A stretch of 33,577 nt of DNA from Planctomycetia bacterium. GTDB taxonomy: Bacteria > Planctomycetota > Planctomycetia > Pirellulales > PNKZ01. The notes beneath the pieces were generated by a model that was not told the origin of the DNA, made no database searches, and worked only from the letters and a program-made list of their open reading frames with translations. The position numbers and the translations under genes are program-made. Position 1 is the first letter of the stretch. Every line of letters starts with the position of its first letter. The stretch spans positions 1 to 33,577 of the forward strand of contig JAIOPP010000123.1 of assembly GCA_021413845.1 (NCBI GenBank), given 5' to 3'. Positions 2,294 through 22,350 of the stretch are shown one piece after another.

Positions 2294-5200
2294 ATGAAAG
2301 TTCCCATGACCCCCGTAGGTATGTTCGGCACCGAGGCTTTGCGCGCTTCGGCCGACGATCAGGTTTTGCGCGTCGATGCGTATGGCATCGTTCACTTAGA
2401 AGATCATGCTCGGCGAATCGCAGCGCTGCATGAACTCGGCGACGCTCGCACGAGCACCGGCGACCTCGCCGCGCGATTCGAAAGCAATCGCGAATTTCTC
2501 GACGGGCTCTATCATGAGCTGGCCGTCTTGCATCGCTCGGGCGAAGCGGTTCCCGCCGGAGCCGAGTGGCTGCTCGACAACCATCAGGTCGTCGATGAGC
2601 AACTCCGCGACTTACACGCTTACCTGCCGCACCACTGTTATTGGGAGTTGCCGAAGCTCCGCGACGGAGTGCCGCGCGTTTATGCGATCGCCGTCGAGCT
2701 CATCGCCCACGCCGACGGGCTGCTCGACGAAGAGACGACCGTCCGCTTTCTGAAAGCTTATCAAAGCGTCGAGCCGTTGACGGTCGCCGAAGTTTGGGCC
2801 GTGCCGATCATGCTCCGCGTCGTGCTCGTCGACAACTTGCGACGCTTGGCCGCTCAATATGCGTTATCGTTGCGCTGCCGTCGGGAAGCGGCGCGCCTGC
2901 TGCAAGACTTCCGCAGCGAAGGTCGTTTTACGTTCGAGCTCGCCGACCCAAGGCCGGCCCCGCTCGAGCGAAGCAAGCGCAACAAATCGATCGCCAAGAA
3001 CCGCGGCTTCTTCTCGCCGCTCCCGGCCGCCTCGAAGCCCTCGGAAGAACGCCTGCGCCGTGCCCTGCCTCGCGACTTCGCCGACGTCCGTCCGCACGGC
3101 TTTGCCGAAACTACGAGCCGCAAGCCGGCTTGGAAAGCCGACGCCCCGCTCCTCTTCGCCCTCGCTGCGGTCGCGGCGCAAGACACGACTTGTGGCGATC
3201 AGCTTTTGGAAAAGCTGGAGCAAGTCGCCGAGCAGCAGGAGACGACGCTCGAAGAAATTCTTCGCTCGGAGCAACGTCGCCAAGCCTACGATCAGGTCTC
3301 GATCAGCAACGTCATTACGACGATTCGCCTCCTCACCTCGCTCGACTGGACCGCGTTCTTCGAGCGCGTGAACTTGGCCGAGACGGCGCTGCGCGAAGAT
3401 CCGCTCGGTCTCTACACCGCGATCGATCCGGAAACCCGCGATCGCTATCGCCACACGGTCGAAGACATCGCCGAGCGCGCCGGAGTGCTCGACGTCGTCG
3501 TCGCTCGCGCCGCGGCGAAGCTGGCGCAAGCGAGCGATGCCGCGTCCGATCCAGCCGTAGGCATGCTCGATGCCGAGCCGGCGCGACACGTCGGCTACTA
3601 CATCATCGGGCCCGGCCTTGCGCAACTCGAAGCCGAGATCGGTTTCCGCCCGTCGCTGTTGCGTCGCGCAGGGCGCGCGTTGATCAACCGCCCGAGCTTC
3701 TGCTATCTCGGCGGCATCGGCTTACTCACGGCATCCTTAAGTGCCGCCGCTGCGCTGCTCTCGCTTCGCGCCGGGGCAAGCTTTCCGATCGCCCTGCTCG
3801 CCGGCTTGCTTACGATCTTCCCGGCCGCGGAGTTTGCCGTCGGTCTGTTGAATTTCCTCGTCACGAAGTGCATCAAGCCTCGACCGTTGCCGAAGCTCTC
3901 ATTCAAAAACGGTATCCCCGTCGAGTGCAAAACGATCGTCGTCATCCCTTCGATGTTGCGCAGCCCGCGCGATGCGTCGACGCTGCTCGAGCGCTTGGAA
4001 ACGCATTATCTAGCGAATCCCGAAGCAAACCTGCATTACGCGCTCTTGACCGACTTCGCCGATGCCGCCGAGCCGACGTTGCCGACCGATGCAGCCTTGA
4101 TCGAACACGCCAAGGCCGGAATTCGCCGACTCAACGCCCGCTACCAAACCGGCGATCAAGGCTCGTTCTTTTTGTTTCATCGAGGCCGTCGTTGGAACCC
4201 TTCCGAAAATGCCTGGATGGGTTGGGAACGGAAGCGGGGCAAGCTCACCGAGTTCAACCGCTTGTTGTTGAACGAATGCGAAACTTCGTACGAAGTGCAA
4301 GAGGGTGACCTCGCGAAGCTGAAGAACGTTCGCTTCGTCATCACGCTCGACGCCGATAGCCAGATGCCGCACGGTGTCGCGCGCCGGCTCGTCGGCACGC
4401 TCGCCCATCCGCTCAATCGCCCGCAACTCGACGAGGCCAAGAGCCATGTCGTCTCCGGTTACGCGATGCTGCAACCGCGCATCGGCATCACGCTCACCAG
4501 CGCGAGTCGGTCGTTGTTCGCCCGCATTTTCGCCGGCGCCGCGGGTGTCGATCCTTACGTCTCCGCGACTTCCGACGCCTATCAAGACTTCTTCCACGAA
4601 GGGAGCTTCACCGGCAAGGGAATCTACGACCTCGAGGCCTTCCACGCCACGACCGACGAGACCTTCCCCGAAAATCAAATTCTCAGCCACGACTTGATCG
4701 AAGGCTGCCACGCACGCGTCGGCCTCACGTCCGACATCGAGCTGATCGACGACTATCCGGCCCGCTACGATGCCGATGCGCGTCGCCATCATCGTTGGGC
4801 GCGCGGCGACTGGCAGTTGCTCTCATGGCTCTTGCCGACGGTCCCGACCGCGCACGGCACGCGCAAGAACCCGCTGTCGTTGTTGTCGCGCTGGAAGATC
4901 GTCGACAACTTGCGCCGCAGCGTTTCGGCTGCCGCTCTGATCGCGTTCGTCGTCGCCGGCTGGTTCTTGTTCCCCGGATCGGCGATGCTCTGGACGCTTG
5001 CGGCTCTCGCCGTCGCCGCGTTTCCGCTGTTCACGCAGATCCCTTGCCTGATTCCGGGCCGGCCCGCCGTGGCTTCGCCCGCCCAGTGGTGGAGTTCGGC
5101 TTCGCACATCTTCACGTCGGCCGTGACGCAGAATTTCCTGACGATCGCCTTCTTGCCGCACAAGGCGTATTACTCGCTCGACGCGATCGTGCGAGCCCTA

Positions 5201-8200
5201 CACCGCACGTATGTCTCGCGCAGCAAACTACTCGAATGGGAAACCGCTGCCGCGGCCGAGCAACGCTTGGTCAGTCGCAAGTGGTCGTTCGTCGCAGAAA
5301 TGTGGTTCGGGCCGGTGCTCGCGATCGGCGTGTTCGTCGCGGCCTGCTGCGGCGTGTTGAAGCCGTCGGCGTACGTTCCGGCATTTGCCCTCGGCTTGGT
5401 TTGGTTCTTGTCGCCGGTGATCGCCGCTTGGGTAAGCCGGGCGACGAAGTCGACCCTCGTCGCTCCGACCTCGAAAGACCAAGTCTATCTGCGCGAGATC
5501 GCTCGGAAGACTTGGGCCTACTTCGAAGCGGCGGTCGGTCCGGAAGATAATTATCTTCCGCCCGACAATATCTCGGAGCATCCGGTCGTCGGCACGAGCG
5601 CGTTGAAAAACGTCACGACGAAGGTCGCGCATCGCCTCTCACCGACGAACGAAGGTTTGTATCTCGTTTCGGCGCTGGCCGCGCACGACCTCGGCTTCAT
5701 CGGCATGCTTGAACTCGCCGATCGCTGCGAAGCCAATCTCGACTCTTGGGAGAAGCTCCCGCAATTCCGCGGGCACCATTTCAACTGGTACGACACCCGC
5801 ACGCTCAAGCCGCTCGAGCCTCGCTATGTGTCGACGGTCGACAGCGGCAACCTCGTCGCTTGCTTCTACACGCTCAGTCGCGGCTTCGAGGAAATCGTCG
5901 CCCGTCCGCAGAGCAAAATTCCAATGGACCGGCTCAGCAATGCCGACGCTTTAGCCAATGAATCCGCACGCTTGATGCCTTGGAAAGAGTCGCTCAAGGA
6001 AGTCCTCGCACCCGCTTGCGAAGCGTGGACGAACCTCCGCGCGAAGCTCGCCGCGGATCACTCGTTGCAATCGCTCGCCGACTTGGCGATGAACACGGCC
6101 GACGATCTGACGGCGCTCGGCTACGAAACGGCCGAAGCCGACCTTTCGGAAGCGGCCGCGTTCGCCGCCGAGGCATGGTTGCGACGTCTCGAAGAAACCA
6201 TCGCGCTCGGCAGCGGCAACGCGCGTCGCCTGATCGAGCGCTACGCCGCGCTCTCGCAGCGGGTCATGCGCCTCGCCGACGAAGTCGACTTCCGCTTCCT
6301 CTACGACCGTAACCGCAAGCTCTTTCATATCGGTTTCAATTTCGAAACCGAAACGCTCGATCGCGGCCACTACGATCTGCTCGCCTCGGAATGCCGGCTG
6401 ACGAGCTTGCTCGCCGTCGCCAAGGGAGATGTCGAGCATCGCCACTGGTTCCAACTCGGCCGTGGGTTCACCCGCGCCTCGGGTAAGCAATGCCTCCTGT
6501 CGTGGAGCGGCAGCCTGTTCGAGCACTTCATGCCGACGTTGTTCACCAAGGTCTATCCGAACTCGCTCATCGATCAAACGCTGCGCGCTGCGACCGAGGC
6601 TCAGATCGCCTACTGCGCCGAGCAAGGCGTTTGCTGGGGGATCTCGGAGTCGTCGTTCGCCGTCGTCAATTCGTCGGTCGATTATTCCTATCAAGGGTTC
6701 GGCATTCCAAGCCTGGGCCTGAAGCGCGGCCTCGCCGGCGATCTCGTCGTCTCTCCCTATTCGACGATCATGACCTTAGGGCTCGACGCGCCTCGCGCAG
6801 TCGCCAACATGCAAGCCTTGGAGCAAGAAGGGGTGCTCGGCGCGCTCGGCTACTACGACGCGATCGACTACACCCCCGATCGCCTCTCGCTCGACGGCAC
6901 CACCGTCGACGAAGACGCGCTCGACGCTTCGCTCACGCCCGTCGATGGGGAAGCGGTTCCGGTCGAATCGGTCGTCAAGAGTCGCAAATCGCGGGCTCGC
7001 AAGCTGCAAGGGCAGATCGTCCCTTGCTACATGACGCACCATCAAGGGATGAGCCTCATGGCGATCGTCAACTGTTTGACCGACGATTGCATGCAGCGCC
7101 GGTTCCATGCCCACCCGATCGTGCGCGCCGCCGAGTCGTTGTTGCAAGAGCGGATTCCGGTCGGCGCGCGATTGGCAGCCCCGCCGGCCGATGCCGAGCG
7201 GCATGTCGAACGCATTCCGGTGATTCAGACCCGGGCCGATCTCGTCAGCCGACGGATCACGGCCTCGGACGTTTCGACGACCCACTCGCATTGGATCTCG
7301 AACGGCCGCTACACGACGGTCGTCAACAATGCCGACGGTGGCTACAGCGTCTGCGGCGATCGCGAAGTCACGCGCCGCCGCAGCGGCGGCATCGACGATC
7401 ACGGCGGACAATGCATCTATCTGCGCGATGTCGGCACCGGCAGCGTCTGGTCGACGGCGTTCCGCCCGACGCGCAAGAAACCCGACGCGTATGAAGTGAC
7501 CTACTCGATCGACAAGGCCGTGTTCCTGCGTCGCGACGGCGACATCGAAACGGAACTGCAAGTCACGGTCGCGCCGGAACACGACGTCGAACTGCGGCTC
7601 TTGAACATCACGAACTACGGCGCACACTCGGCCGAAATCGAAATCACGAGCTTCGTCGAGCTGGCCGAGGGTCATGCCGGCGAGCGATTCGAGTCGGGCC
7701 GGTTCCTCACCCGCCGCGGGACGTTGCCGGGCACGGCCATCGAAATGGAAATCGTGCCCGAACGCGCCGGAATCTTGGCCGGCGGAAGTCGCCGAGGGAG
7801 CAGCCGCACCCCTTGTCTGTTCCACGCGCTGGCGAAATCGACCACGCGCCGCGACGGAGAATCGACCGACGCGGTTTCGCTGCGCACGGAGTTCGAAACC
7901 GACCGGACGCGCTTCATCGGCCGCGATGGCGCGATGCACTCGCCGGCCGCGATGGAGCCGGGCGCACATCTTTCCGGCCGCTCCGAACCGATCCACGACC
8001 CGATCTTCAGCGTACGCGAAACGCTCGGCATCGGGCCCGGCGAAACCGTCACGATCGCGTTCGTCACCGGTGCCGCCGGCTCGCGCGACGAAGCGTTGCG
8101 CTTGATGGCCGACTATCACGACCTGCGGATCGTGCGCCGCTCGTTCGAGCTCGCTTGGGTGCATAGCTGTGCCGAGTTGCGGCGCTTGCGTTCGACCGCC

Positions 8201-8719
8201 GCAGCGGCTCATCTCTATCAACGGATCGCGCCGTTCGTGCTGCATGCCGAGCCGACGCCAGCGGCCGAGCCGCAAGACCAAGCGAAGCGCTTCGACGTGC
8301 TCCGCCGTTGCGGAATTCCGGGCGAACGACGATTGATCCTGGCGCGCGTCTCGCATCTCGATCATCTCTCGTTGGTGCGCGAGCTTTTGGCGGCCCGCCG
8401 CTACTGGCGATCTCTCGGCCTGCATATCGACCTCGCGATCTTGCATGCACCGAAAGCGCCGGCCGATCAGCAGTTGCCCAACGCGCTGACTCTCACGGTC
8501 CGCAGCGCCGAGCAAATCGAGTCGGACGATGGAGCCGGCGTGTTCCTCATCGACGGCGCTCAGCTGACCGACGCCGATCTCACCGTTCTCGACGGCACGG
8601 TTCCGGCCGTGTTCGACGGCGAACGGGGCGATCTGGCGCGGCATCTCGATGCCTTTCACGCTCCGATCCCGGCCGGAGTTAAGATCCGCCGCGGGCGGGC
8701 CACGGCGTTCCAAGGGTAA
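2294..8719 (+). CDS. Cyclic beta-1,2-glucan synthase-like protein lacking the C-terminal GH94 catalytic module
   Basis: This 2141-residue membrane protein resembles NdvB/ChvB/Cgs, which polymerises UDP-glucose into beta-1,2-glucan and cyclises it. The N-terminal helical region carries the family pattern EWLLDN...ELPKL..G.PRVYA. Transmembrane segments lie near 469-520, 876-919 and 1003-1046. The GT84 domain has D686-A-D688, GKGIYD near 774, D800/E803 (HDLIEG) and HHRWARGDW from 832. The glycoamylase-like cyclisation domain (GH189 type) covers about 1070-1620 and includes MTHHQGMS at 1580-1587. One GH94-type N-terminal beta-sandwich follows at about 1660-1960, then a helical linker. Full-length relatives are near 2800 residues and continue with a second sandwich and the GH94 phosphorylase barrel; both are absent here. 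The frame shows no interruption. ATG 2306 (MTPVGMFG) fits the AAGGA at 2290-2294 better than ATG 2294. It lies 117 bases upstream of an ABC exporter. Confidence 0.88.
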   Translation: MKVPMTPVGMFGTEALRASADDQVLRVDAYGIVHLEDHARRIAALHELGDARTSTGDLAARFESNREFLDGLYHELAVLHRSGEAVPAGAEWLLDNHQVVDEQLRDLHAYLPHHCYWELPKLRDGVPRVYAIAVELIAHADGLLDEETTVRFLKAYQSVEPLTVAEVWAVPIMLRVVLVDNLRRLAAQYALSLRCRREAARLLQDFRSEGRFTFELADPRPAPLERSKRNKSIAKNRGFFSPLPAASKPSEERLRRALPRDFADVRPHGFAETTSRKPAWKADAPLLFALAAVAAQDTTCGDQLLEKLEQVAEQQETTLEEILRSEQRRQAYDQVSISNVITTIRLLTSLDWTAFFERVNLAETALREDPLGLYTAIDPETRDRYRHTVEDIAERAGVLDVVVARAAAKLAQASDAASDPAVGMLDAEPARHVGYYIIGPGLAQLEAEIGFRPSLLRRAGRALINRPSFCYLGGIGLLTASLSAAAALLSLRAGASFPIALLAGLLTIFPAAEFAVGLLNFLVTKCIKPRPLPKLSFKNGIPVECKTIVVIPSMLRSPRDASTLLERLETHYLANPEANLHYALLTDFADAAEPTLPTDAALIEHAKAGIRRLNARYQTGDQGSFFLFHRGRRWNPSENAWMGWERKRGKLTEFNRLLLNECETSYEVQEGDLAKLKNVRFVITLDADSQMPHGVARRLVGTLAHPLNRPQLDEAKSHVVSGYAMLQPRIGITLTSASRSLFARIFAGAAGVDPYVSATSDAYQDFFHEGSFTGKGIYDLEAFHATTDETFPENQILSHDLIEGCHARVGLTSDIELIDDYPARYDADARRHHRWARGDWQLLSWLLPTVPTAHGTRKNPLSLLSRWKIVDNLRRSVSAAALIAFVVAGWFLFPGSAMLWTLAALAVAAFPLFTQIPCLIPGRPAVASPAQWWSSASHIFTSAVTQNFLTIAFLPHKAYYSLDAIVRALHRTYVSRSKLLEWETAAAAEQRLVSRKWSFVAEMWFGPVLAIGVFVAACCGVLKPSAYVPAFALGLVWFLSPVIAAWVSRATKSTLVAPTSKDQVYLREIARKTWAYFEAAVGPEDNYLPPDNISEHPVVGTSALKNVTTKVAHRLSPTNEGLYLVSALAAHDLGFIGMLELADRCEANLDSWEKLPQFRGHHFNWYDTRTLKPLEPRYVSTVDSGNLVACFYTLSRGFEEIVARPQSKIPMDRLSNADALANESARLMPWKESLKEVLAPACEAWTNLRAKLAADHSLQSLADLAMNTADDLTALGYETAEADLSEAAAFAAEAWLRRLEETIALGSGNARRLIERYAALSQRVMRLADEVDFRFLYDRNRKLFHIGFNFETETLDRGHYDLLASECRLTSLLAVAKGDVEHRHWFQLGRGFTRASGKQCLLSWSGSLFEHFMPTLFTKVYPNSLIDQTLRAATEAQIAYCAEQGVCWGISESSFAVVNSSVDYSYQGFGIPSLGLKRGLAGDLVVSPYSTIMTLGLDAPRAVANMQALEQEGVLGALGYYDAIDYTPDRLSLDGTTVDEDALDASLTPVDGEAVPVESVVKSRKSRARKLQGQIVPCYMTHHQGMSLMAIVNCLTDDCMQRRFHAHPIVRAAESLLQERIPVGARLAAPPADAERHVERIPVIQTRADLVSRRITASDVSTTHSHWISNGRYTTVVNNADGGYSVCGDREVTRRRSGGIDDHGGQCIYLRDVGTGSVWSTAFRPTRKKPDAYEVTYSIDKAVFLRRDGDIETELQVTVAPEHDVELRLLNITNYGAHSAEIEITSFVELAEGHAGERFESGRFLTRRGTLPGTAIEMEIVPERAGILAGGSRRGSSRTPCLFHALAKSTTRRDGESTDAVSLRTEFETDRTRFIGRDGAMHSPAAMEPGAHLSGRSEPIHDPIFSVRETLGIGPGETVTIAFVTGAAGSRDEALRLMADYHDLRIVRRSFELAWVHSCAELRRLRSTAAAAHLYQRIAPFVLHAEPTPAAEPQDQAKRFDVLRRCGIPGERRLILARVSHLDHLSLVRELLAARRYWRSLGLHIDLAILHAPKAPADQQLPNALTLTVRSAEQIESDDGAGVFLIDGAQLTDADLTVLDGTVPAVFDGERGDLARHLDAFHAPIPAGVKIRRGRATAFQG

Positions 8720-8836
8720 ACTCTCCGTTCGGCGAACGTCGACGAGCATCTATCGTCGCCGGCCGCCGTGGTACGCTCTTAGGCATCCGTCCGCTTTGCG
8801 CATTCCTCTAGGCTTTCAGGTTCGGCAACTACCGTC

Positions 8837-10774
8837 ATGGCGAGCGATCCTCACGCGAAGTCGGAATCGATCGTCGAGGAGTTCCGCACGATCGCTTATC
8901 GCGTTCGGCAAATGTGGAAGCTCATTCCGCAGCGCCAAAAGCTGACCCTCGGCGCGGCCGGCGGAATCATCTTCCTCGGCGGGGCCGCCAACACGGCGAT
9001 TCCGCTCCTGCTGGGCGCGCTCGTCGACACGGTCGAAGCGATGCCGATCGCCGCGCGCAACGCCGCCGGAGAGACGCCGCTGCCGGATGGGTTTCTCCGC
9101 TCGGCCGGCATGTACATGGCGCTAATCGGCGCGGCGTATCTGCTGCGCGAGGCGCTGCAAGTGGCCCGGCGTTATATCGTCGAAGATACGACCACTCGGC
9201 TTGAGAAGCATCTTTTCATTCGCGTCATCACGCAACTGCTGACGGCCGATCTCTCGAGTATTTCGCAAGAGAAAATCGGCGTGCTGCATGGTCGGATGTT
9301 GCGCAGCGTGGCCGGCGGCGTGCGGTTCTTGCGACTCGGCTTTCTCGACTTTCTACCGGCGTTGCTCTCCGGCGGCTTAGCGCTCACCGCGGTGGTCGCG
9401 AAGGAGCCGTGGCTCGGCCTGGCGATGACGGCCGTCGTGCCGCTGTCGCTCTATATCACGCTGCGGCAGATTCGCTCGCAGGAAGGAGTGCGGCTCGATC
9501 TGATGCGGAGCCGGGAGCAGATGGACGGCACGGTCGTCGAGCAGCTCAACGGCATCGAATACATCCGCGCCGCCGACACGCATCTGCGCGAAGTCGAGCG
9601 GGTAGCGAAAGCGGCTGAGAACCTGCGCCGCAAAGAGCTGCGGCATCATTTCGAAATGTCGCTCTACGGCTCGAGCAAGGCGCTCGGCGAAGCGCTCGTC
9701 CATATCTGCGTGTTGGGAGCGGCCGTTTATCTCGCCGCGAAGGGCGAGATCAGCGTCGGCTCCGTGTTTACGTTCTCGATGCTGTTTCTCAACGTCATGG
9801 CGCCGCTCAACGAAGTGCATCGCGTCGTCGACGAAGGACACGAAAGCAGCCTGATGGTCGCCGACTTATTGCAGATGTTGAACCAAGAATCCGACCGCTC
9901 CTACCGCACCGCGCCGCGTGCGGCCGATCCCGCTTACGCCGGCGACTTGATCATCGGCCGCGAGCTCGATGTCGATTACGCGACGCCGGCCTATGTCCGT
10001 CGCGGAGCGTTGTCGGGAGTCTCCTTGTCGATCGCGCGCGGTGAGATCATCGGCATTGCCGGTCGCTCGGGCTGCGGCAAATCGACGTTGCTCAAGACCC
10101 TCATGCGGCTCGTGCATCCCGGCGGCGGCGAGGCCTTGCTCGAAGGAATTCCGCTCGACGAAACCTCGCGCGCGAGCATCGCCCGATTGACGGGCTACGT
10201 GAGTCAGGCGCCGTTCATCTTCTCCGGCACCATCACCGAGAACATCGCCTACGAGCGCCAGGACGCGACGCCGGAGCAGATTCGCCGCGCCGCGGAAATG
10301 GCCTGCCTGCACGACGAAATCATGGCGATGCCCGGCGGCTACGAAGCTCGGGTCGCCGAGCGCGGCAAGAACCTTTCCGGCGGCCAACAGCAGCGGCTGG
10401 CGCTGGCGCGGGTGTTTCTCAAAGATCCCGCGTTGCTGATCCTCGACGAAGCGACCTCGGCTCTCGACAACATCAGCGAACGCAAAATCCAACAAGCGCT
10501 CAACAACGGCCGCCGCGATCGCACGATCTTGCTCGTCGCGCATCGCCTGTCGACGCTCCTCTACGCCGATCGAATTCTCGTATTCGACGGCGGCAAGATC
10601 GTCGAGACCGGAACGTACGACGAGTTGGTCGCCCTAGGAGGCGTCTTTACGGAACTAGTACGAAGCGCCACAGGCTTCGACCACCCTACGGACGACGCGG
10701 CGTTGAGCAATGCGGTATCAAGCAATGCCGCGCCGAACGACACGGCGCCGAAAGACATTCCGCTCACGATGTGA
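8837..10774 (+). CDS. Type I ABC exporter, fused permease/ATPase, possible glucan exporter
   Basis: This 645-residue half-transporter has a six-helix ABC exporter membrane domain (about residues 35-330) followed by a nucleotide-binding domain. Key motifs are Walker A GRSGCGKST at 409-417, a Q-loop in GYVSQAPF, signature LSGGQ at 513-517, Walker B LLILDE at 533-538 and the switch histidine H569 in LLVAHRLST. It should act as a homodimer in the cytoplasmic membrane. The C-terminal 35 residues are a low-complexity Asn/Ala/Asp tail. It follows the glucan synthase-like gene by 117 bases on the same strand. In rhizobia and Agrobacterium, cyclic beta-1,2-glucan is exported by the ABC protein NdvA/ChvA, so context suggests that role. 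Sequence alone does not separate it from lipid, peptide or drug exporters. The ribosome-binding site is weak. Confidence 0.88.
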   Translation: MASDPHAKSESIVEEFRTIAYRVRQMWKLIPQRQKLTLGAAGGIIFLGGAANTAIPLLLGALVDTVEAMPIAARNAAGETPLPDGFLRSAGMYMALIGAAYLLREALQVARRYIVEDTTTRLEKHLFIRVITQLLTADLSSISQEKIGVLHGRMLRSVAGGVRFLRLGFLDFLPALLSGGLALTAVVAKEPWLGLAMTAVVPLSLYITLRQIRSQEGVRLDLMRSREQMDGTVVEQLNGIEYIRAADTHLREVERVAKAAENLRRKELRHHFEMSLYGSSKALGEALVHICVLGAAVYLAAKGEISVGSVFTFSMLFLNVMAPLNEVHRVVDEGHESSLMVADLLQMLNQESDRSYRTAPRAADPAYAGDLIIGRELDVDYATPAYVRRGALSGVSLSIARGEIIGIAGRSGCGKSTLLKTLMRLVHPGGGEALLEGIPLDETSRASIARLTGYVSQAPFIFSGTITENIAYERQDATPEQIRRAAEMACLHDEIMAMPGGYEARVAERGKNLSGGQQQRLALARVFLKDPALLILDEATSALDNISERKIQQALNNGRRDRTILLVAHRLSTLLYADRILVFDGGKIVETGTYDELVALGGVFTELVRSATGFDHPTDDAALSNAVSSNAAPNDTAPKDIPLTM

Positions 10775-11305: not shown

Positions 11306-14300
11306 ATGGTCCAACGCCTTGTGAAGTGGTCGCTCGACAATCCCCTGATCGTCATTCTGCTGACGATCACGCTCATCGGCGGTGGGGCGTATTGCTTCTC
11401 TCAAGTCAACATCGAAGCGTATCCGGATCCGGCACCGGCAATCATCGAGATCATTGCGAAGTATCCCGGCGCATCGGCCGAAGAGGTTGAGCGACAGGTC
11501 ACGACACCCCTTGAAGTGGCGTTCGCGGGCATGCCGGGTTTGAAGTTCACACGCAGCAAGTCGCTATTCGGGCTGGCCCACGTGCGGAACCAATTTGAAT
11601 ACGGCATCGACTATTACGCGGCTCGCCAAGAAGTAATCAATCGATTGCAGTTCGTCGAAGGACTTCCGGAAGGAGTCAAACCGCAAATCTCTCCCACGAG
11701 CCCGACGGGCGAGATCATGCGATTTACTCTCACAAGCCCCCGCGACGGGAGCGGTAACGACATTTACACGCTTAACGATCTCAAGGCGCAGCAAGATTGG
11801 ATATTAGTGCGCCGCCTCAGGCGAGTGCCTCGGATCATCGACACCGTAAGCAGCGGCGGAACCGTCAAACGTTACGAAGTGCGGCCGGACCCGGAACGCT
11901 TGTTGCGCTACGGCATTCCGCTCAAGCAACTCGAAACGACGATCCGCGACAGCAATGCCAACGTCGGGGGCGATTACCTAGTTCACGGCGAAAACCTCCT
12001 CAACGTGCGCAGCATCGGCCTCATCGGCAACGGCCAAGATCCGACACGATCCTCCGTCGTCATCAGCACGCGCAATCCGGAAGTCGCTGCGCAGCATCTG
12101 CGCGAAGAGGAGAAGGCTCGCGTTCGCGCGATTCGCGAAACGGTGATCTCCTCGATCAACAACGTCCCGATTCGCGTGGAAGATGTCGTCGAGCGAGGAC
12201 CACTGCAATTTGCCGACGACATCGGCAAAGAGGGAGTCGTCGTTACGCATCAGCCGCGGATGGGGCGAATCAGCATCAGCTATCCCACGCTCGACGCGAA
12301 CGGCAGCGAAATCGCCGATGGTCAAGGAGAGCGGATTTGGAAGGATGAGAAGGAGCGAATCCAGGGAATCGTACTGCTTCGCAAAGGGGACGCGTCGCTC
12401 CCCGCTTTAAAAGACGTCAAGGAACTAATTGCGTCTTACAACGGCGGTAAGGGAGATTTGCTGCCGGGGGTCAAAATCGAGCCCTATTACGATCGGACGG
12501 ATCTCATCGGGGTGACGACCCACACGGTCGGCGAGAATCTGATCGTCGGGCTGGTTTTAGTTACGCTGATACTCCTTATGTTTTTGTCGAATCTGCGGTG
12601 CGCTCTCATCGTCGCGATCAACGTACCGTTGGCACTGCTGGTAGCCTTCGCCATGCTGTACTTCCGCAATCGGTCGGCGAATCTGCTGTCGATCGGTGCC
12701 GTCGACTTCGGCATCATCTTGCTGAGCGCCGTGATCATCGTCGAAAACGTGTTTCGGCATCTCAACGAACGAATCGGCGAAGAGCTCCCACTCAAAGAAC
12801 GGATTCTGAACGCCTGCGGTGAGGTGCAAAAAGGTTTGTTCTTCACCACGGCGATCATGGTGGCGGCATTTATTCCGTTGTTCACGATGAAAGGACCGGA
12901 AGGGCAAATCTTCGGGCCTATGGCGGACACCTACGCGTTTTCGCTGGCCGGAGCGCTCGTGCTTGCGCTCACGATCGTGCCCGTGCTTTGTCTGCTGCTC
13001 TTCAGAAACTTCAAGCCGGCTCCGGACAATGCGATGGTGAGATACTTGCAGCACAGCTACCTCAAGCGCTTGGAGTGGTGTCTGCTGCATCGCACGAAGG
13101 TCTTAGTCATGATGGGCGGCTTGGTCGTGATGACGGCCGCTCTCTTGCCCGGACTCGGCCGCGAATTCATGCCGGAATTGGAGGAAGGGAATCTCTACGT
13201 GCGCGGCACTTTTCCGATCAACGTCGCTCCCGACGCGGCTGCCGACAAGTCGGATCGAGCGCGGCTCATCATGCGTAAGTATCCGGAGATCCGCGTCGTC
13301 GTGTCGCAAAACGGTCGCCCTGATGACGGCACCGATCCGACCGGCTTTTTCAACTTGGAATTCTTTCTCACCTTGAAGATGCCGAGCGAGTGGCCGGCCG
13401 TAAAAGAACAGTCGGGCTGGAAGAAGCTTTTCTGGCCGAAGCGATCGCGCATGAAGTCGGAGCTCATCGAAGAGATGAGCGCGGAACTTTCGCGAGAAAT
13501 CATCGGGGCCGATTGGAACTTTTCGCAAAACATCCGCGACAACGTCATGGAGTCGCTATCGGGCGTGAAGGGAGACAACTCAGTCAAGATCTTCGGGCCC
13601 GATCTAGACGAATTAGAGCGTGTCGCCGAACGATTGCAGCAACGATTGACCACGATCGAAGGGATTCGTAACGTCGGTGTTTTTCGAGTGAAGGGCCAGC
13701 CGAACTTGGAGCTTCCGGTCGATCCGAACAAGTGCAATTATTGGGCGGTCAGCGTGCAAGACGTCAACGACGTCATTCACACGACGGTCGGCGGTAAAGC
13801 ATCGACGGAGATGATCGAAGGGGAGAAACGATTCGACGTTTCGCTTCGCTTTCCGGAGCGACTTCGCAACAGCGAGGAAGCGATCCTCAATATTCCCGTC
13901 GAGGTGTACAACAACCGCGTCGCCGGCCAGGATGGTACGAGCGGCAAAAAGGAGCTTCCGACCTCCGGGGTCGGTTCGGCGCTTCCCTCCCTCTTCGGTA
14001 CGAATTTCGGCGGCAGTCACGCCCAATCAGGCAAAATCGCCCGTCGCCGCCTGGGAGACCTCGTTACTCCGCTCAACGACGACGGCAAATTCGATCCTCA
14101 GGGCCGTTTCGTGCGGGCGGGTGCTTCAACGATTTATCGCGAGCAAGGCAATCGTATGATTGCGGTCAAGTTCAGCGTTCGCGGACGCGACCTCGCAGGC
14201 GCCGTCAACGAAGCCCAGGAGAAAACGAATGATCTTTTCCAGGCCCCGTACAGCGCCGTCTGGAGCGGCGAGTTCGATCAGATGCGCGAGGCCGAAAAGC

Positions 14301-14815
14301 GCTTGATGCTCATCGTCCCGATCTCGATGGTCTTGGTGTTCGTCCTGATCTATCTTGCGTTCCGTTCGGTGTACGACACGCTGGCGGTCGCTGCGAACGT
14401 CGGCGCTCTGTCGATGGGTGGAATTTGGGCGCTGCTCTTAACTGGGACGAACTTCAGCATCTCCGCAGCCGTCGGGTTCATCTCGATCTTCGGTGTCGCC
14501 ATCATGGATGGTCTATTATTGATCGCGTACTTCAACCAGCTACGCGCGCAAGGGCTTCCCCTCCACGATGCCATTATCCACGGTGCGGAAAAACGAGTGC
14601 GGCCGATGATGATGTCGGCGTTGATCGCGATTCTCGGCTTGTTACCCGCGGCGATCTCCACCAAGATCGGCGCTCAAACACAACAACCGCTGGCGATCGT
14701 CGTCGTAGGCGGGATGCTCGTAACGTTGCTGCTCAACCGCTATTTGATGCCTGTACTTTATAGCCTGTACGGCCATCGCGAGCCCTCGGAGCATGCAGCC
14801 AGTATGGCGCACTAG
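11306..14815 (+). CDS. RND efflux transporter, CzcA/CusA-like
   Basis: This 1169-residue inner-membrane pump belongs to the AcrB/CzcA/CusA superfamily, most like the heavy-metal branch. It begins with the typical first helix and the motif YPDPAPAIIEI..KYPGASAEEVERQVTTPLE. Two large periplasmic loops and two bundles of membrane helices follow in the usual order. The fourth helix reads DFGIILLSAVIIVEN from D467. In CzcA the same helix is DFGIIIDGAVVIVEN. The first Asp and the Glu (E480) are kept, but the middle Asp is Leu (L473). A C-terminal LPAAISTKIGAQTQQPLAIVVVGG-type segment is typical of the family. No membrane-fusion protein or outer-membrane channel lies nearby, so it must use distant partners or act differently. 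The substrate cannot be told. Confidence 0.9.
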   Translation: MVQRLVKWSLDNPLIVILLTITLIGGGAYCFSQVNIEAYPDPAPAIIEIIAKYPGASAEEVERQVTTPLEVAFAGMPGLKFTRSKSLFGLAHVRNQFEYGIDYYAARQEVINRLQFVEGLPEGVKPQISPTSPTGEIMRFTLTSPRDGSGNDIYTLNDLKAQQDWILVRRLRRVPRIIDTVSSGGTVKRYEVRPDPERLLRYGIPLKQLETTIRDSNANVGGDYLVHGENLLNVRSIGLIGNGQDPTRSSVVISTRNPEVAAQHLREEEKARVRAIRETVISSINNVPIRVEDVVERGPLQFADDIGKEGVVVTHQPRMGRISISYPTLDANGSEIADGQGERIWKDEKERIQGIVLLRKGDASLPALKDVKELIASYNGGKGDLLPGVKIEPYYDRTDLIGVTTHTVGENLIVGLVLVTLILLMFLSNLRCALIVAINVPLALLVAFAMLYFRNRSANLLSIGAVDFGIILLSAVIIVENVFRHLNERIGEELPLKERILNACGEVQKGLFFTTAIMVAAFIPLFTMKGPEGQIFGPMADTYAFSLAGALVLALTIVPVLCLLLFRNFKPAPDNAMVRYLQHSYLKRLEWCLLHRTKVLVMMGGLVVMTAALLPGLGREFMPELEEGNLYVRGTFPINVAPDAAADKSDRARLIMRKYPEIRVVVSQNGRPDDGTDPTGFFNLEFFLTLKMPSEWPAVKEQSGWKKLFWPKRSRMKSELIEEMSAELSREIIGADWNFSQNIRDNVMESLSGVKGDNSVKIFGPDLDELERVAERLQQRLTTIEGIRNVGVFRVKGQPNLELPVDPNKCNYWAVSVQDVNDVIHTTVGGKASTEMIEGEKRFDVSLRFPERLRNSEEAILNIPVEVYNNRVAGQDGTSGKKELPTSGVGSALPSLFGTNFGGSHAQSGKIARRRLGDLVTPLNDDGKFDPQGRFVRAGASTIYREQGNRMIAVKFSVRGRDLAGAVNEAQEKTNDLFQAPYSAVWSGEFDQMREAEKRLMLIVPISMVLVFVLIYLAFRSVYDTLAVAANVGALSMGGIWALLLTGTNFSISAAVGFISIFGVAIMDGLLLIAYFNQLRAQGLPLHDAIIHGAEKRVRPMMMSALIAILGLLPAAISTKIGAQTQQPLAIVVVGGMLVTLLLNRYLMPVLYSLYGHREPSEHAASMAH

Positions 14816-14968: not shown

Positions 14969-17900
14969 CTACGTTAGCAATGTGCGGCATGCCGCCACGG
15001 CTTCCGCGACTTGCGCCGGTTGGTTTTTTTCCATTGCCGTCGTTAGGTCTTCGACTACGGTCGTGAGTCGGAAGGCGTCGAGCGTTTGTTGGAATTCTTG
15101 TTCGTCTTCCGGCACCAGCAACTGGCCGACGACCGCCGCGCGATACGAGCTCAGCAGCGCCTCGGCGCAGGCTCGGCGCCAAGCTTCGGCCCAACTTTGC
15201 ACCTTCGCGGCGAGCTCCGCATGCCGGCCGACTTGCGCGAACCACGCGGCCATTCCCTCCTGCGCCGCGATCTGAATCGCGCGATCGATGCGTGCGAGAT
15301 CGATGAACACGCTCCGTTTGATGCGCCGCTCGGAAAGGGGCCGACCGGGGTTGCCGCCCCAATCGACGATCTGCAAATGGTCTCCTTGCAGCAGCACTTC
15401 GTTCGTCGTCAACGAGCCGTGGCAGCGCACGCGCCAAAGCGGCGTCGACGAGCGCGATAGCGGCCCGAACCGCTGCGCGATCCGATACTCTTCGCTGAGG
15501 AACTGCAAGTCCTGAGTCGCGGGCACCGTGTCGGGATGGAGTCGAAGATAGGTGCGCAAGGCGGCGAAGGCGCGCGCCGTCTGAGCGCGAAAGCCGTGGC
15601 TGATGCTGCGGCGATAATGCGTGTTGAACGGCTCCGGTGCGAACTCCGGTCGGTCCGTAAGGCCGGCGAGCGCCAGATGGATCTCCGCCAGCGATGCTCC
15701 GAGCAGGCGGAACCAATGCGGCAGCGGCCCGAACGAATGTTCGCTCGGCTGCGCCGGCGAATGCGTTTCGGCCGGCGTCGTCGGGGCGTCTCGTTGCGGC
15801 GCGGGCAGGTGACGGTCTGCTGAGACCCGCTCGAATTCTCGTCGCAACTCTTCCCGGCAGAGATCGGCCAAAGGTCGTTCGTAGGTGACGTAGTCGTAAG
15901 CGACGCCAAGCACGACTTCCCCCAGCGCCGCATCTTGAAAGCGAAACGTGCCGCGCAGTTTCGAGCACGACAGGGCTCCCGGCATCGCGGCGAGTGCCGT
16001 CCCGATTTCGACCTCGGGATGAATGCCCGGCTCGATGCGCCGGAATAGCTTGAGGAACAAGAATTTGTCGAGCGCGGCGACGGCGCCGCGCGAATAAGTC
16101 GAACGCCACAGCGGAACGATCGCCGCCGGCGTGACGGAATCGAGCCGCGGCATTTCGCCGAGCGGTCGCCAATCGATCCGCCCTTGAAGGCCCGGCACGG
16201 AAGCGCCGGCCGCGAGAGCCTTCGCCAGCCGCTCCCAGAAATTCGCCTCGGCCGTGGCATCGCAGACGAACCACGTCGCCGCGGGATTGCGCGTTCTCAC
16301 GCGCACGGCTCCGGCCGTCGGGCGATCGCGCAAGATCGCTTGAGCCCGCGCCTCGGGTGTCGCGATCAAGATCAGTTGATATAGGCCCGGCTCTCCCTCG
16401 GTGTAGAAGACGCGCAGCAAGACGATCGCGTAGGTGCTACCGTCGTCGTCGCGCATGCCGATCGGCACGACTTCGACGACGTCGGTCGTGCGAATCGTAC
16501 GCTCGGAGGCGAGATGCCACGATTGCAAACGAAGATACGCGCTCAGGCCGTCGCGAATCCGATCAAGCGCCGGAACACGCAGCGCGTCGGTCCACTCGCT
16601 CGCGACGCGCACGATCGGCAACTCCGATGGTGACCGGCGCGCAGCTTCACCGTGCGGCCGTTCGATCTGAAACCAATAGAAGCCGTGCGGCCCGACGGTG
16701 AGCATGTACGGCAATTCGCCGATCATCGGAAACCGGCTTTGGCCGAAGAGCTCGACCGGCGAACGTCCGCGGTATGCCCCGAGATCAAGCTCGACCGCTT
16801 GCGGGAAGCGCGACAAATTCACGACGACCAACAGCGTTTCGTCTTCATACTTTCGCAGGAACGCCAGCACGCGCGGATTTTGCGGCAACAAGAATTCGAT
16901 CTCGCCTCGGCTGAAGCTCTTGAAGCGTTGCCGAAGCCGGAGCACGCGACGAACCCACCACAAAAACGAATGCGGGCTCTGCTCTTCCGTCTCGACGTTG
17001 ACCGATTGATAGTGGTACTCCGGATCGGAAATCGGCGGCAGAAACAGCCGTTGCGGGTTCGCGCGCGAGAAGCCGCCGTTACGATCGGAGCTCCATTGCA
17101 TCGGCGTGCGCACGGCATCGCGATCGCGCAGGTAGATATTGTCGCCCATGCAAATCTCATCGCCGTAATACATCACCGGAGTGCCCGGCAGCGCGAAGAG
17201 CAGCGAATGCATGAGCTCGATCTTGCGGCGATCGTTGCGCAAGAGAGGCGCCAGCCGGCGGCGCAAGCCGAGGTTGACGCGGGCCCGCGGGTCGGTCATG
17301 TAGAAGCGATACATCGCGTCGCGCTCTTCGTCGGTCACCATTTCGAGCGTGAGCTCGTCGTGGTTGCGGAGGAAGATGGCCCATTGCGAAGTCGGCGGCG
17401 GCGCGGGCGTGTGTTGCAGAATGTCGACGATCGGAAAGCGTTCTTCTTGTTGCACGGCCATGAAGAGCCGCGGCATCAACGGAAAGTTGAAGCACATCTG
17501 GCATTCGTCGTCGTCGCCGAAATAGGCCGAGGTTTCATCGGGCCATTGATTCGCTTCGGCCAACAGCATCCGGCCGGGGTAATGGTCGTCGATGTGCTTG
17601 CGCAGGCGGCGCAAGAAAGCATGTGTCTCCGGCAGGTTCTCGCAGTTGGTCCCTTCTCGTTCGTAGAGATAGGGAATGGCGTCGAGCCGGAGACCGTCGA
17701 TGCCCATCGCGAACCAGAAGTCGACGATCTTCAGCAACGTTTCTTGCACCACTTCATTGTCGAAGTTCAAGTCGGGCTGGTGCGAGTAGAAGCGATGCCA
17801 AAAATATTGCTGTGCTTCGTGGTCCCATGTCCAGTTCGAGACTTCGAAGTCTTGGAATATGATCCGGGCTTCGCGATATTTTTCGGTCGTATCGCTCCAG

Positions 17901-18400
17901 ACATAGAACTCGCGCTCGGGGCTCCCCTTCGGCGCGCGGCGCGCGCGCTGGAACCAAGCGTGTTGGTCCGAGGTGTGGTTGATGACCATCTCGGTGATGA
18001 CGTTAAGGCCGAGCCGATGCGCCTTGTCGAGAAACTTTTTGAAGTCGTCGAGGTTGCCGTACATCGGGTTGACGGTCGAATAGTCGGCGATGTCGTAACC
18101 CTCGTCGCGCAGCGGCGAGGGGTAGAACGGCAGCAGCCAAATCGCCGAAACGCCGAGCGAGGCGACGTATTCGAGCTTCTCCGTCAGGCCGGCGAAGTCG
18201 CCGATGCCGTCGCCGGAGCTATCGAAAAACGAGCGGACGTGCATCTGATAAATGACGACGTCTTTGTACCAATCGGCCGGACGCGAGGCCTCGAAGTCGC
18301 TTTGCGAAGTCGCGTTCACGAGCGGTTGGTTCTGGGCGCCGGTGCCACTTTGCATAGCGGCCTCGTTCGGCGCAGGCTCCGGAGAATGGATGGTGCTCAT
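14969..18400 (-). CDS. treS: Trehalose synthase fused to a degenerate maltokinase-like domain
   Basis: This 1143-residue fusion starts with a GH13 trehalose synthase (about residues 40-590), which interconverts maltose and trehalose. It has WYKDVVIYQ, nucleophile D240 (GLRLDAIPYL), acid/base E282 (LLAEANQW) and D348 (RNHDEL), so this half looks active. The rest (about 600-1143) is a maltokinase-type domain, which in active enzymes uses ATP to make maltose 1-phosphate. The usual HGD.H..Q motif is HGSLTTNE at 994-1001, replacing the catalytic Asp by S996. The usual DFEGEP reads DWGGNP from D1013. The following RPLSERRIKRS segment is conserved. The ATG lies 6 bases after the treY stop, with a GGGAG inside the treY end, so translation is probably coupled. 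The frame is intact to its natural C-terminus. Confidence 0.92.
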   Translation of the reverse strand: MSTIHSPEPAPNEAAMQSGTGAQNQPLVNATSQSDFEASRPADWYKDVVIYQMHVRSFFDSSGDGIGDFAGLTEKLEYVASLGVSAIWLLPFYPSPLRDEGYDIADYSTVNPMYGNLDDFKKFLDKAHRLGLNVITEMVINHTSDQHAWFQRARRAPKGSPEREFYVWSDTTEKYREARIIFQDFEVSNWTWDHEAQQYFWHRFYSHQPDLNFDNEVVQETLLKIVDFWFAMGIDGLRLDAIPYLYEREGTNCENLPETHAFLRRLRKHIDDHYPGRMLLAEANQWPDETSAYFGDDDECQMCFNFPLMPRLFMAVQQEERFPIVDILQHTPAPPPTSQWAIFLRNHDELTLEMVTDEERDAMYRFYMTDPRARVNLGLRRRLAPLLRNDRRKIELMHSLLFALPGTPVMYYGDEICMGDNIYLRDRDAVRTPMQWSSDRNGGFSRANPQRLFLPPISDPEYHYQSVNVETEEQSPHSFLWWVRRVLRLRQRFKSFSRGEIEFLLPQNPRVLAFLRKYEDETLLVVVNLSRFPQAVELDLGAYRGRSPVELFGQSRFPMIGELPYMLTVGPHGFYWFQIERPHGEAARRSPSELPIVRVASEWTDALRVPALDRIRDGLSAYLRLQSWHLASERTIRTTDVVEVVPIGMRDDDGSTYAIVLLRVFYTEGEPGLYQLILIATPEARAQAILRDRPTAGAVRVRTRNPAATWFVCDATAEANFWERLAKALAAGASVPGLQGRIDWRPLGEMPRLDSVTPAAIVPLWRSTYSRGAVAALDKFLFLKLFRRIEPGIHPEVEIGTALAAMPGALSCSKLRGTFRFQDAALGEVVLGVAYDYVTYERPLADLCREELRREFERVSADRHLPAPQRDAPTTPAETHSPAQPSEHSFGPLPHWFRLLGASLAEIHLALAGLTDRPEFAPEPFNTHYRRSISHGFRAQTARAFAALRTYLRLHPDTVPATQDLQFLSEEYRIAQRFGPLSRSSTPLWRVRCHGSLTTNEVLLQGDHLQIVDWGGNPGRPLSERRIKRSVFIDLARIDRAIQIAAQEGMAAWFAQVGRHAELAAKVQSWAEAWRRACAEALLSSYRAAVVGQLLVPEDEQEFQQTLDAFRLTTVVEDLTTAMEKNQPAQVAEAVAACRTLLT

Positions 18401-18406
18401 GGTGTG

Positions 18407-21400
18407 TTATGCTCCCTCGCTCACGAAAACGCCGATCGGAAATTCATCGAGAACTTCCTTCAAGCGAAACAGATCGGACTTCGCGTGGACTTGCCGGCCG
18501 GTGAGATGATTCACGAACGTGCGGGGAAACCCGGCGGGGAGTTCGACCGTCGTGTCGGCCCAGACGCGCTCCCCTTGCCCGACGCAGGCGACGACGCCGT
18601 CGATCGCGGCGGCCTCGGTAAGTCGACCCCACCAGCGCGGCACGACGACCACGATGCGCGTTGCATCTTCCGCCCCGGCTTCATGTTCGGCGGAGTGATC
18701 CGACGTCGGTTGCCAAGCGAAGGCGACGATGTGTTCCGCGGCGCGCCCCGAGGTCGACAGCGGAACATAGCGCCCTGCGGCGAAGAGCGTTTCGTGTTTG
18801 CGGCGCAGCTCGATGAGCTTCCAGGTGGCGAAGAGCTTGAGCCGATCATCGGCGGGGTTTTTCGCTAAACTCGCCGCGAACTCCGCGCGGTGGCTCACCT
18901 CGGTTGGGAAGTCGGCTTTCAGTTTTTGCAGCAATTGCGTCCGACGGGCGTAGTCGACTGGGCGGCGATTGTCGGGGTCGACGAGGCTGAAATCCCAAAC
19001 CTCTTGCCCCTGGAAAATGTCGGGCACGCCGGGCGAAAGCAGCTTCAACGCGACTTGCGAGAGCGCCGTGTAGAGGCCGAGTTGCACGATCTTGCGCTGC
19101 AGCGCAAGGAACTCCGGCAAGAAGCGATTGTCGGCATCCGGGGTCAAGCAAGCGGCGACGAAATCGCGCACCGCTTGGTCGTAGCCGGGGTTCGGGTTGA
19201 TCCAGCTCGTTTGCTGTTTCGATTCGTGCGTAGCCTTTTCCATGTAGGCTTGCATGCGCTCGATGACCGCGGTGCGCGTCGCATCGTCGAGCTCGCCGCC
19301 GGTGGGCCACATGCCGGTGAGGCTTTGATAGAACAAGTATTCATCGTTGCGCGTCGGCGCGAGGACCCCATCGACCTTCGTGCGCCTTCGGCGATTTAAA
19401 CGATTCCACCGATTCACGGCCGTGCGCCACGGGCGCGGCATCTCCGAGAGAACGTTGATGCGGGCCCGAACGTCTTCGCTGCGCTTGGTGTCGTGCGTGC
19501 TCGTGGCGAGCAGGCTCTGCAAGCCGCGGCGTCGGCGACCGGCATTCTGTTGATGAAACTCTTCGATGCCGTGCGCCGCGGAAGCGGGATCGCCGCCGAC
19601 CTCATTCGCCGACAGCAACGGGAAGTAAACGTAAAACGCCGTGTCTTCGACCCCTTTCGCCATGATCGGGCTCGTGACTTGTTGAAACAAGCCGGCGAAG
19701 TGTTCGCGCGCTTGCTTCGCCTCTTCGCTCAGGCCCGAGGGGTGGCGCAGCAAGAGGACGTCGCGGATGAAATCGAACGTGGCGGGATCGATCGTGCGGT
19801 TGTGGCGCTTCGCCGAGGCGACGGCATAGTTCACGAACCGCCGATCGCGATCGCTCACTCCTTCCGGGCCGGGATACGTCCGATAAACCGGAAAGCACGC
19901 GAGGACTTCGCGCAGCGCATAGCGCAGCGCGTTGAGTGTGAAGTCGCGCGATTTGCGATGCTGCTCCGAGATGCGATTCAAACGATGCGCGAGCATTTGC
20001 AACTCACTCGACATCGATGACCGCACTATCAAGCGTTTGCACTCGCGCGCGATCGTAGCGAACGAGCGCTCTTCGGCGGTGAAGCGCTTGTAATGTTTCT
20101 CGACGGAGCCGTAGCCCTGCGGGTGGACGAAGATGCTGTTGAGCTGGTTCGTGAAGTCGTAGCCGGTGGTTCCCGCGACGGGCCACGTCTCGGGCAAAGG
20201 CTCATGCGGGCCGAGAATTTTTTCGACGACGACGAACAACGGCAACCGCTGCTGCAAGTTGCCGTGATCCGCGACCTTGGGAAGATCGTTGCCGCTCGCA
20301 GTACGTGAATCGCGGCCGGCTTCCGCCGCGCCACGCCCGAAAATCGCCGTCCAATCCGACTCTTTCGGTTGTCGCAAACCGAGCCGATCGCAAAGTTGCC
20401 GCAACGCTTCGACGGCCACGCTCAGCGCCGGCGAAGCACTCTCTTCGACGCTGCTCGCAGCATCTTTCTCGGTTTCATTCTCCGGCGATTGTTTCGCACC
20501 GGCGATGCTCTCGGCGAGCGCCGCCGTTTCTTCCGCGGAAAGTTTGCCGAGCTCGTCGCGCAGCAGATGGCCGAGATAATTCCATTGCAGCCGCCACAGA
20601 TATTGCTCGGGGCTGAAAAGCCCGTCGACATGGTCGATGCGCAAGCCGTCGATCTCGCCGGATGCGAGCAACTTGCCGATAAGTTCGTGCGCCGAATGGA
20701 AAACCTCGGACTTCTCCATGCAAAGCGCCGCGAGGTCGTTGATGTCGAAGAAGCGGCGATAGTTGATTTCGTCGGACGCTGCCCGCCAATGACACAACCG
20801 ATAGGTCTGCGCTTGCAGCAATTTGTCGAGCGCCTCGAACGACTCCGGTTCCCCTTCCCGACCGTTGAACACGCGGACGTTCTCCGCCAGAAACTCCGCG
20901 ACCTTCGGCTCGCGGGCTTCGAGATCGCGCAGCCGGCGCTTAATCACTTCCTTCTCGCGCTGCCGCTCGACCGTCGCTTTCGGCGAGATCGAAGTTTGCG
21001 CCGGCAAGTGTTGAATCGCAGTGACGATGCTTTGGTATTCGTCGAAGCTCTCCGAGCCGGCGCCGAGCGCCGTGTTCAACTCTTCGAGGCGATGCGTCAG
21101 CAGCGGGATCGTCGTCTTCGGGCCGAGGGGCAACCGATGTTGAAAGTAATGAAACTCGAAGCGCCCTTCGTGATGTTCGATCTTCAGTTGGCCGCGCTCG
21201 AGCGCGTCGCCGTATTGCGAGCCGAGTTGCGGCAGGAGGACTTTGTTTTCGAGTTCGTCCTTCACCGGATGCCAGTCGATATCGAAGTAGCCCGAGTAAG
21301 GAGAGTTGGGACCGTTCTCCAAGACATCGCGCCACCAAGGGTTTTCGCACGAGGCAGCCATGTGGTTCGGCACGACGTCGACGATATGCCCCATGCCATG

Positions 21401-21712: not shown

Positions 21713-22350
21713 GGTGCTGCTCCCGTGCTGCTTCTTGGCTTGGTGCCCAAACGGCTTAGCGCAGCCATCGCTCAGGGAGCGCCGACCGCGGTCGTTCGGC
21801 GACCAACTGCCTTGGTCTATCGCGGCTGTGAAGGCCTTCTAAGATGCTTATTTAATGAGGGTTACGTCTAAACATTCGGCTGGGCGTGCAGGCTGGAAGA
21901 GAGGGTTTGCACTTCTCATGCCGGAGCCGGGAAACAGAGGGACGAACCGCCAAGTCAATTGTATAGAATTCTCTTGTCAGCCTGGTTCGGCGGCGATAGA
22001 TTGGATTCCGGTCCACAAGACCGGCACGGCCAACCCTGGGCGTGTCCCTGCCTGCCGAGCGACAAGCTCGGCTACCTCCATTCCCTGTGGATTGGTGGAC
22101 CGGCGCTGTCCAATTGAGTCGGTTTCGAGACTACTCGGATCCCGGCTTGCTGACGGTTGTCGTTTGCACCAGCCGATTTACACGGCAGTGCTCCGGCGAA
22201 CGTCCGGCAGCGTTAAGCGTCCGAATCAAATCGTTCCTGCAACCGCAACACGGCAAGCGCTTCGGCTCTTCGTCGCTTGCGAGGCGTGAGCGGTTTCGGG
22301 TGCTCCGGCGATTCGAAAAGTCTCCTCGTCCGAACGAGGATGACGTTGCT
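21713..22350. other. Divergent intergenic region between treY and the cytochrome gene
   Basis: These 638 bases separate two divergently transcribed units and should hold both promoters. A perfect 10-base palindrome (GACCGCGGTC, 21784-21793) lies about 75 bases upstream of treY. A/T-rich patches occur near 21845-21860 and 21955-21980, and TATAGAAT near 21963 is a possible -10 element. The frame of the cytochrome gene is open back to an ATG at 22042, but that extension is Arg-rich and would place the signal peptide internally, so I treat it as non-coding. Confidence 0.45.

Follow-up and report, generated by a model that had tools for sequence, protein, structure and literature searches.

A planctomycete cyclic glucan synthase that stops short of its GH94 phosphorylase barrel

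Cyclic glucan synthases (CGSs) have been described as three-module machines that polymerise, trim and cyclise their product. Can such a machine do without its trimming module? The question is raised by a gene at 2294–8719 (+ strand) of the window, the 33,577-nucleotide stretch of Planctomycetia bacterium DNA analysed here (contig C123, positions 1–33577), which encodes a CGS of 2141 amino acids (aa) that ends before the GH94 phosphorylase barrel. Our favoured reading, which we hold with somewhat better than even confidence, is that the enzyme is active, does no phosphorolytic trimming and probably yields rings that are larger or less uniform and are exported by the neighbouring gene product; activity, product, ring size and export are what we infer here. 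The draft genome (G000) comprises 7.08 Mb in 167 contigs and is 99.6% complete with 1.7% contamination. Genomes, contigs and loci are given our own G, C and L handles.

Architecture and integrity of the window CGS

The gene starts with ATG and contains no internal stop codon. Pfam (E ≤ 0.01) placed Glycoamylase PF10091 at residues 1359–1608 and a single GH94 supersandwich, PF06165, at residues 1665–1926, and found no Glyco_hydro_94 PF17167 in the protein. With phmmer, the window CGS matched the Agrobacterium CGS structures 8rf0 and 8rf9 over the N-terminal domain (NTD), GT84, cyclase and GP1, the match to 8rf0 spanning 309–1532, and its cyclase domain also matched the Thermoanaerobacter cyclase 8wy1 by sequence. 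Domain names (NTD, GT84, CY, GP1, RFL, GP2, GP3) follow the scheme of PMC10901819; this and the other papers are cited for the parts of their text available to us.

We aligned the protein with 13 CGSs of planctomycetes. In 12 of these the frame measures 2919–3021 aa from stop to stop, and the other one, of 2697 aa, is truncated by the end of its contig. The window CGS stops about 20 residues past RFL, at a point where all 13 continue into GP2 and the barrel. Together, these data confirmed that it consists of NTD, GT84, cyclase (GH189), GP1 and RFL, and that GP2 and GP3, the latter being the GH94 barrel, are missing. A preliminary description of this DNA, made from the sequence alone, had called the gene a CGS without its GH94 module. 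Both points were borne out, the identity by the two Pfam domains, the alignment and the retained GT84 and cyclase residues described below, and the missing barrel by the lack of PF17167 and the stop before GP2. Its statement that the protein keeps one GH94-type sandwich and then stops held for GP1 and required a correction, in that RFL is kept too and GP2 and GP3 are what is lacking.

The features of the locus are as follows (domain limits are approximate).

2294–8719, + strand: short cyclic glucan synthase, 2141 aa, no GP2 or GP3 (open reading frame (ORF), Pfam, alignment)
2339–2923, + strand: N-terminal domain, residues 16–210 (alignment to full-length CGSs, phmmer to 8rf0)
3224–5911, + strand: GT84 polymerase and membrane segments, residues 311–1206, with D686, D688, D800 and priming Y755 (alignment, phmmer)
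5912–7213, + strand: linker and GH189-type cyclase, residues 1207–1640, with E1366, E1452, H1582 and H1583 (PF10091 at 1359–1608, alignments)
7214–8173, + strand: GP1, first GH94-type supersandwich, residues 1641–1960 (PF06165 at 1665–1926, alignment, model)
8174–8653, + strand: RFL, Rossmann-like domain, residues 1961–2120 (alignment, model, Foldseek; name from PMC10901819)
8654–8719, + strand: short tail, predicted disordered, then the stop where GP2 would start (alignment, model)
8720–8836, no strand: 117-bp gap to the next gene (ORF coordinates)
8837–10774, + strand: ATP-binding cassette (ABC) exporter half-transporter, 645 aa, probable export partner (PF00664 and PF00005; adjacency)

An AlphaFold2 model restricted to residues 1305–2141 (37-row alignment; mean pLDDT 78.1, pTM 0.67) contained part of the cyclase, the sandwich, a four-strand alpha/beta (Rossmann-like) domain and a disordered tail. 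Over these residues its secondary structure held no second helical barrel, which bears out the absence of a C-terminal GH94 barrel by structure prediction, where the preliminary description had named the finding of such a barrel as a refutation. The best Foldseek matches of the model were three Agrobacterium CGS entries (827–836 columns); because the TM score was 0.49 and the rmsd about 23, the relative domain placement is not reproduced.

Eleven positions were checked for retention, namely the GT84 aspartates, the arginine and tryptophan of what we take to be the polymerase motif, the priming tyrosine and five cyclase residues, and all 11 are kept in the window CGS and in five other short forms. 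Residue roles come from PMC10901819 and PMC10834661, and the numbering correspondence is our reading of alignments to 8rf0 and 8wy1. Compared with the Agrobacterium CGS, the window CGS has the same order of NTD, GT84, cyclase, GP1 and RFL and retains the aspartates of GT84 as well as the priming tyrosine, Y755, which corresponds to Agrobacterium Y694, whereas it has neither GP2 nor GP3 and stops near Agrobacterium residue 2012 (limits from PMC10901819). In the cyclase (GH189) of Thermoanaerobacter italicus CGS (TiCGS; 8wy1, an isolated domain of a CGS rather than a whole protein), the residues E1356, E1400, E1442, H1536 and H1537 all have counterparts in the window CGS, E1366 and E1452 aligning with TiCGS E1356 and E1442. 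Among positions conserved in at least 90% of a set of 40 full-length CGSs, the window CGS retains 172 out of 183 for GT84 and 67 out of 75 for the cyclase. When the members of the set were themselves scored, leaving one out at a time, median retention was at least 98% in every domain; minima are meaningless here because the set includes some partial rows.

Third-position GC is 0.71–0.83 across all 200-codon blocks and 0.75 in the last, in keeping with the clean frame noted earlier for this gene. A tblastn search with the C-terminal part of a full-length relative (L070) against window positions 8401–33577 returned zero matches at E ≤ 1; thus, no frameshifted remnant of GP2 or GP3 was found there. 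The claim that nothing is left over downstream is upheld by this search, and a sequencing error hiding a continued frame is unlikely. Because PF17167 is absent, the stop precedes GP2 and no GP2 or GP3 was found downstream, we file the window CGS as a variant and not as a canonical member of the family.

Short forms in other genomes and the number of losses

If the window CGS is a natural variant, similar proteins might occur elsewhere. The window CGS was searched against 57 relatives, of which 16 matched at E ≤ 1e-3, and against a class sample (at least 108 of 397 genomes at 1e-20), an order sample (38 of 396 at 1e-100) and the order of G230 (44 of 170 at 1e-100). These sets overlap, those of 57, 397 and 396 genomes include the window's own genome, and hits were inspected in part. 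A frame of roughly 2650 aa upwards was in most cases counted as full-length by length alone, and shorter ones were fetched together with representatives of the rest. A locus was called decidable if the barrel was hit or if its sequence extended 3.9 kb or more beyond the cyclase.

A barrel was present in 40 of the 45 decidable planctomycete loci fetched, the five without one being the window, L060, L061, L146 and L166; this set was deliberately enriched for short frames, and 40/45 is no frequency. Another 33 planctomycete loci were undecidable (contig ends, partial matches), and L051, L056 and L174 had been dropped beforehand for want of a GT84-cyclase hit. In a contig scan, mostly of other phyla, 49 of 50 decidable loci carried the barrel and 13 were undecidable, after removal of three duplicates and of L122, L140 and L144, which had no GT84-cyclase hit. 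A Gemmatimonadota chromosome carries a CGS-like frame (L115:9845-13321, +) that runs from mid-GT84 to GP1, without barrel and N-terminal part.

The short forms end at different points. L060 (G230) and L061 (G384), from metagenome-assembled genomes of Schlesneria, are 1416-aa proteins with GT84 and cyclase only; Pfam reported the cyclase alone on the L060 protein. This pair has dN 0.032, dS 0.62 and dN/dS 0.052, so the Schlesneria short form is under purifying selection as judged from these sequences. L146 (G188) ends after GP2, and L160 (G501) and L166 (G475) end after the cyclase. The N terminus of L166 is cut by its contig, and L160, undecidable under the 3.9-kb rule, is followed by an ORF on the reverse strand. 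Two further candidates, L057 (4157–12567) and L062 (3777–12649), were rejected as short forms; at both, the CGS changes frame, though not strand, between its N- and C-terminal parts, with GH94 adjoining, reflecting either sequencing error or a real split.

A tree of 51 proteins (1152 GT84-plus-cyclase columns, IQ-TREE) placed the window CGS with the two Schlesneria short forms at 100/100 (98 in a quick first tree). L146 grouped with the full-length L090 and L179 (100/99), and L160 and L166 paired at 100/100 within clade B. A single loss behind all short forms was rejected, the fewest full/short changes on the tree being three. In approximately unbiased (AU) tests on a 20-row subset, one clade of window, Schlesneria and L146 was rejected (p-AU 9.7e-15), as was Schlesneria with L183 instead of the window (p-AU 0.00013); the tested groups were named after the tree had been seen, which weakens these p-values. 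The independence of the L160/L166 loss is indicated by the tree alone, and there is some chance that the window and Schlesneria proteins, both on long branches, attract each other. Overall, the tree suggests that barrel loss occurred more than once in nature. This grouping, the 11 retained residues and the coding composition up to the end of the frame support the earlier proposal of a natural variant rather than a broken gene.

Could another protein supply the missing module? Pfam on the 16 window translations and a whole-genome search revealed no separate GH94 on the window contig. The genome holds one GH94, inside a full-length CGS on contig C26 (2978-aa frame), which is 44% identical to the window CGS over GT84 and differs from it in having GH94, in lying on another contig and in belonging to clade B, as L160 and L166 do. 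The claim that no other gene here supplies GH94 stands for the contig and is corrected by the C26 CGS for the genome as a whole. PF17167 had no match in four of the six short-form genomes, G230 and G384 (99% and 100% complete), G188 and G501, the absence in G501 being less certain at 89% completeness. G475 (93% complete) encodes, besides its short CGS, a separate 1825-aa protein with GH94 supersandwich and barrel (L186:3857-9334, +) that is 33–35% identical to the CGS module. The window gene was unmatched at E ≤ 1e-3 in the genus-mates G001 and G002, and G003 has only the clade-B full-length form.

The ABC exporter and the gene neighbourhood

The 645-aa ABC exporter (PF00664 and PF00005) starts 117 bp after the CGS stop. 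It resembles ChvA/NdvA in being an ABC half-transporter encoded beside a CGS, and its role as a glucan exporter is inferred from position. Exporters 57.5–58.5% identical to the window exporter begin 22 and 23 bp past the two Schlesneria short CGSs. Within the fetched flanks, a related exporter (E ≤ 1e-20) accompanies five of the six short loci (not L166) and also 6 of 13 other clade-A1, 7 of 15 clade-A2 and 1 of 12 other clade-B loci; the flanks are short and these counts are lower bounds, with weak matches at L160, L182, L185 and L045 (169–225 bits) and a short one at L066 (114 bits). No related exporter lies within the fetched flanks of the C26 CGS. Exporter adjacency was rejected as a hallmark of short forms, many full-length CGSs being flanked too. 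Because related exporters also flank full-length clade-A CGSs, the CGS-exporter pairing probably predates barrel loss. The exporter at L146 (L146:10893-13088, −) lies upstream of the short CGS on the same strand and is 48% identical to that of the window.

Downstream of the window exporter and on the same strand is an RND transporter (11306–14815, +; TIGR00914 734.6 bits against a cut-off of 701.45, CusA/CzcA family). TreS, with a putative maltokinase part, and TreY adjoin the CGS cluster (14969–21712, −), and CGS and trehalose genes may possibly form an osmoadaptation neighbourhood. The 31 kb retrieved from the genus-mate G003 carry the TreS-TreY pair with no CGS, RND gene or close exporter relative, indicating that the cluster was gained in the window genome or lost in G003. 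Farther along, positions 22042–27522 (+) encode an 1826-aa protein with the planctomycete cytochrome-type domains PSCyt1, PSCyt2 and PSD1 and WD40 repeats.

Probable product and rival explanations

In the mechanism we favour, GT84 would prime itself on Y755 and extend beta-1,2-glucan from UDP-glucose, and the GH189 domain would close the chain into a ring by transglycosylation, with no GH94 barrel to trim it. Ring size would be set by GT84-to-cyclase geometry, plus any remaining GP1-RFL contribution, and by what the neighbouring exporter accepts; a partner accepting larger rings could remove the cost of lost trimming. By analogy with published constructs, larger or less uniform rings would be the likeliest product. 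Brucella Cgs truncated in its phosphorylase domain, which shares GT84 and cyclase with the window CGS and is, unlike it, an engineered laboratory construct, made larger rings in E. coli (PMC11071196), and Agrobacterium Cgs with a dead barrel site was nearly wild type in vivo (PMC10901819). Natural short forms fit both the dispensable barrel site and the larger rings. Elsewhere, CGSs are described with a C-terminal GH94 region (PMC11842490), and the portion of PMC5352709 available to us goes no further than tabulated GT84 and GH94 counts and a mention of GH94 genes. Among the papers listed, titles and opening abstracts yielded no report of natural CGSs without GH94; most subscription literature and CAZy lay outside this survey, and absence from print is not established.

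Several observations weigh against an active enzyme making exported larger rings. The larger Brucella rings were poorly secreted by E. coli carrying the native transporter (PMC11071196). Agrobacterium Cgs without its C-terminal half, or without RFL onward (Cgs 1–1846), was nonfunctional in a growth assay, and the same cryo-EM study argued that conservation of the trimming site in known homologues shows its fitness value (PMC10901819); natural short forms challenge the need for the C-terminal half as a general rule. The window exporter scores far below the ChvA/NdvA cut-offs (TIGR01192, 192.6 of 585.4 bits; NF010178, 250.5 of 733). The window gene has no close relative, and selection was measured on the Schlesneria pair only. 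The full-length C26 CGS could do the job. Finally, the window CGS keeps just 40 of 56 conserved GP1 positions and 4 of 9 in RFL, as would also be expected of a decaying gene; L146, in which GP2 is present and the barrel is not, likewise keeps 40 of 56, and from these alignments GP1 constraint seems to relax after barrel loss.

The relaxed GP1 and RFL, the long branch, the full-length copy in the same genome and the inactive Agrobacterium truncations would all suit a degenerating, inactive paralogue, tolerated since the C26 CGS does the work. We consider this unlikely, as the 2141-codon frame is intact with coding composition to its end, all 11 checked positions are kept, and purifying selection acts on the Schlesneria sister form, whose genomes gave no GH94 match. 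Length control in trans, in which the C26 CGS through its GH94 module, or a different phosphorylase, would trim the product of the window enzyme, has in its favour the one GH94 of the genome and the separate GH94 protein of G475; it appears improbable, too, given that the C26 gene belongs to another clade and contig and that PF17167 is unmatched in the short-CGS genomes G230, G384, G188 and, as far as its completeness allows, G501.

That the window enzyme makes linear beta-1,2-glucan or another product, having lost the glucan-binding surface for cyclisation, is less probable still. RFL, GP2 and GP3 have indeed been proposed as a surface that orients the chain for cyclisation (PMC10901819), but the isolated Thermoanaerobacter cyclase domain turns linear chains into rings (PMC10834661), and the retention of every checked cyclase residue, seen in all six short forms, makes a linear glucan less likely. 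An assembly or sequencing error that cut a full-length gene might be suspected in a draft genome, and at L057 and L062 the CGS is divided between frames, its GH94 portion adjoining. We regard it as highly improbable for the window, where no GP2/GP3 similarity was found over positions 8401–33577 and whose junction between short CGS and exporter is seen again in two Schlesneria assemblies.

Returning to the active, untrimmed synthase, a bolder extension is possible, and we advance it tentatively, as somewhat less likely to be right than wrong: a planctomycete lineage of minimal CGSs, each paired with an ABC exporter of its own, would control ring size through the geometry of the synthase and the choice made by the exporter, not through phosphorolysis; the RFL/GP2/GP3 surface would be unneeded for cyclisation, and the products would be undescribed large cyclic (or long linear) beta-1,2-glucans. 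The short forms constitute a natural truncation series: the last domain is the cyclase in Schlesneria, L160 and L166, RFL in the window CGS and GP2 in L146. With such a series one can ask how ring size is determined and which role each domain plays. The short forms could serve as compact sources of large cyclic glucans. Since barrel loss appears to have occurred more than once, the trimming step of cyclic glucan synthases may be optional.

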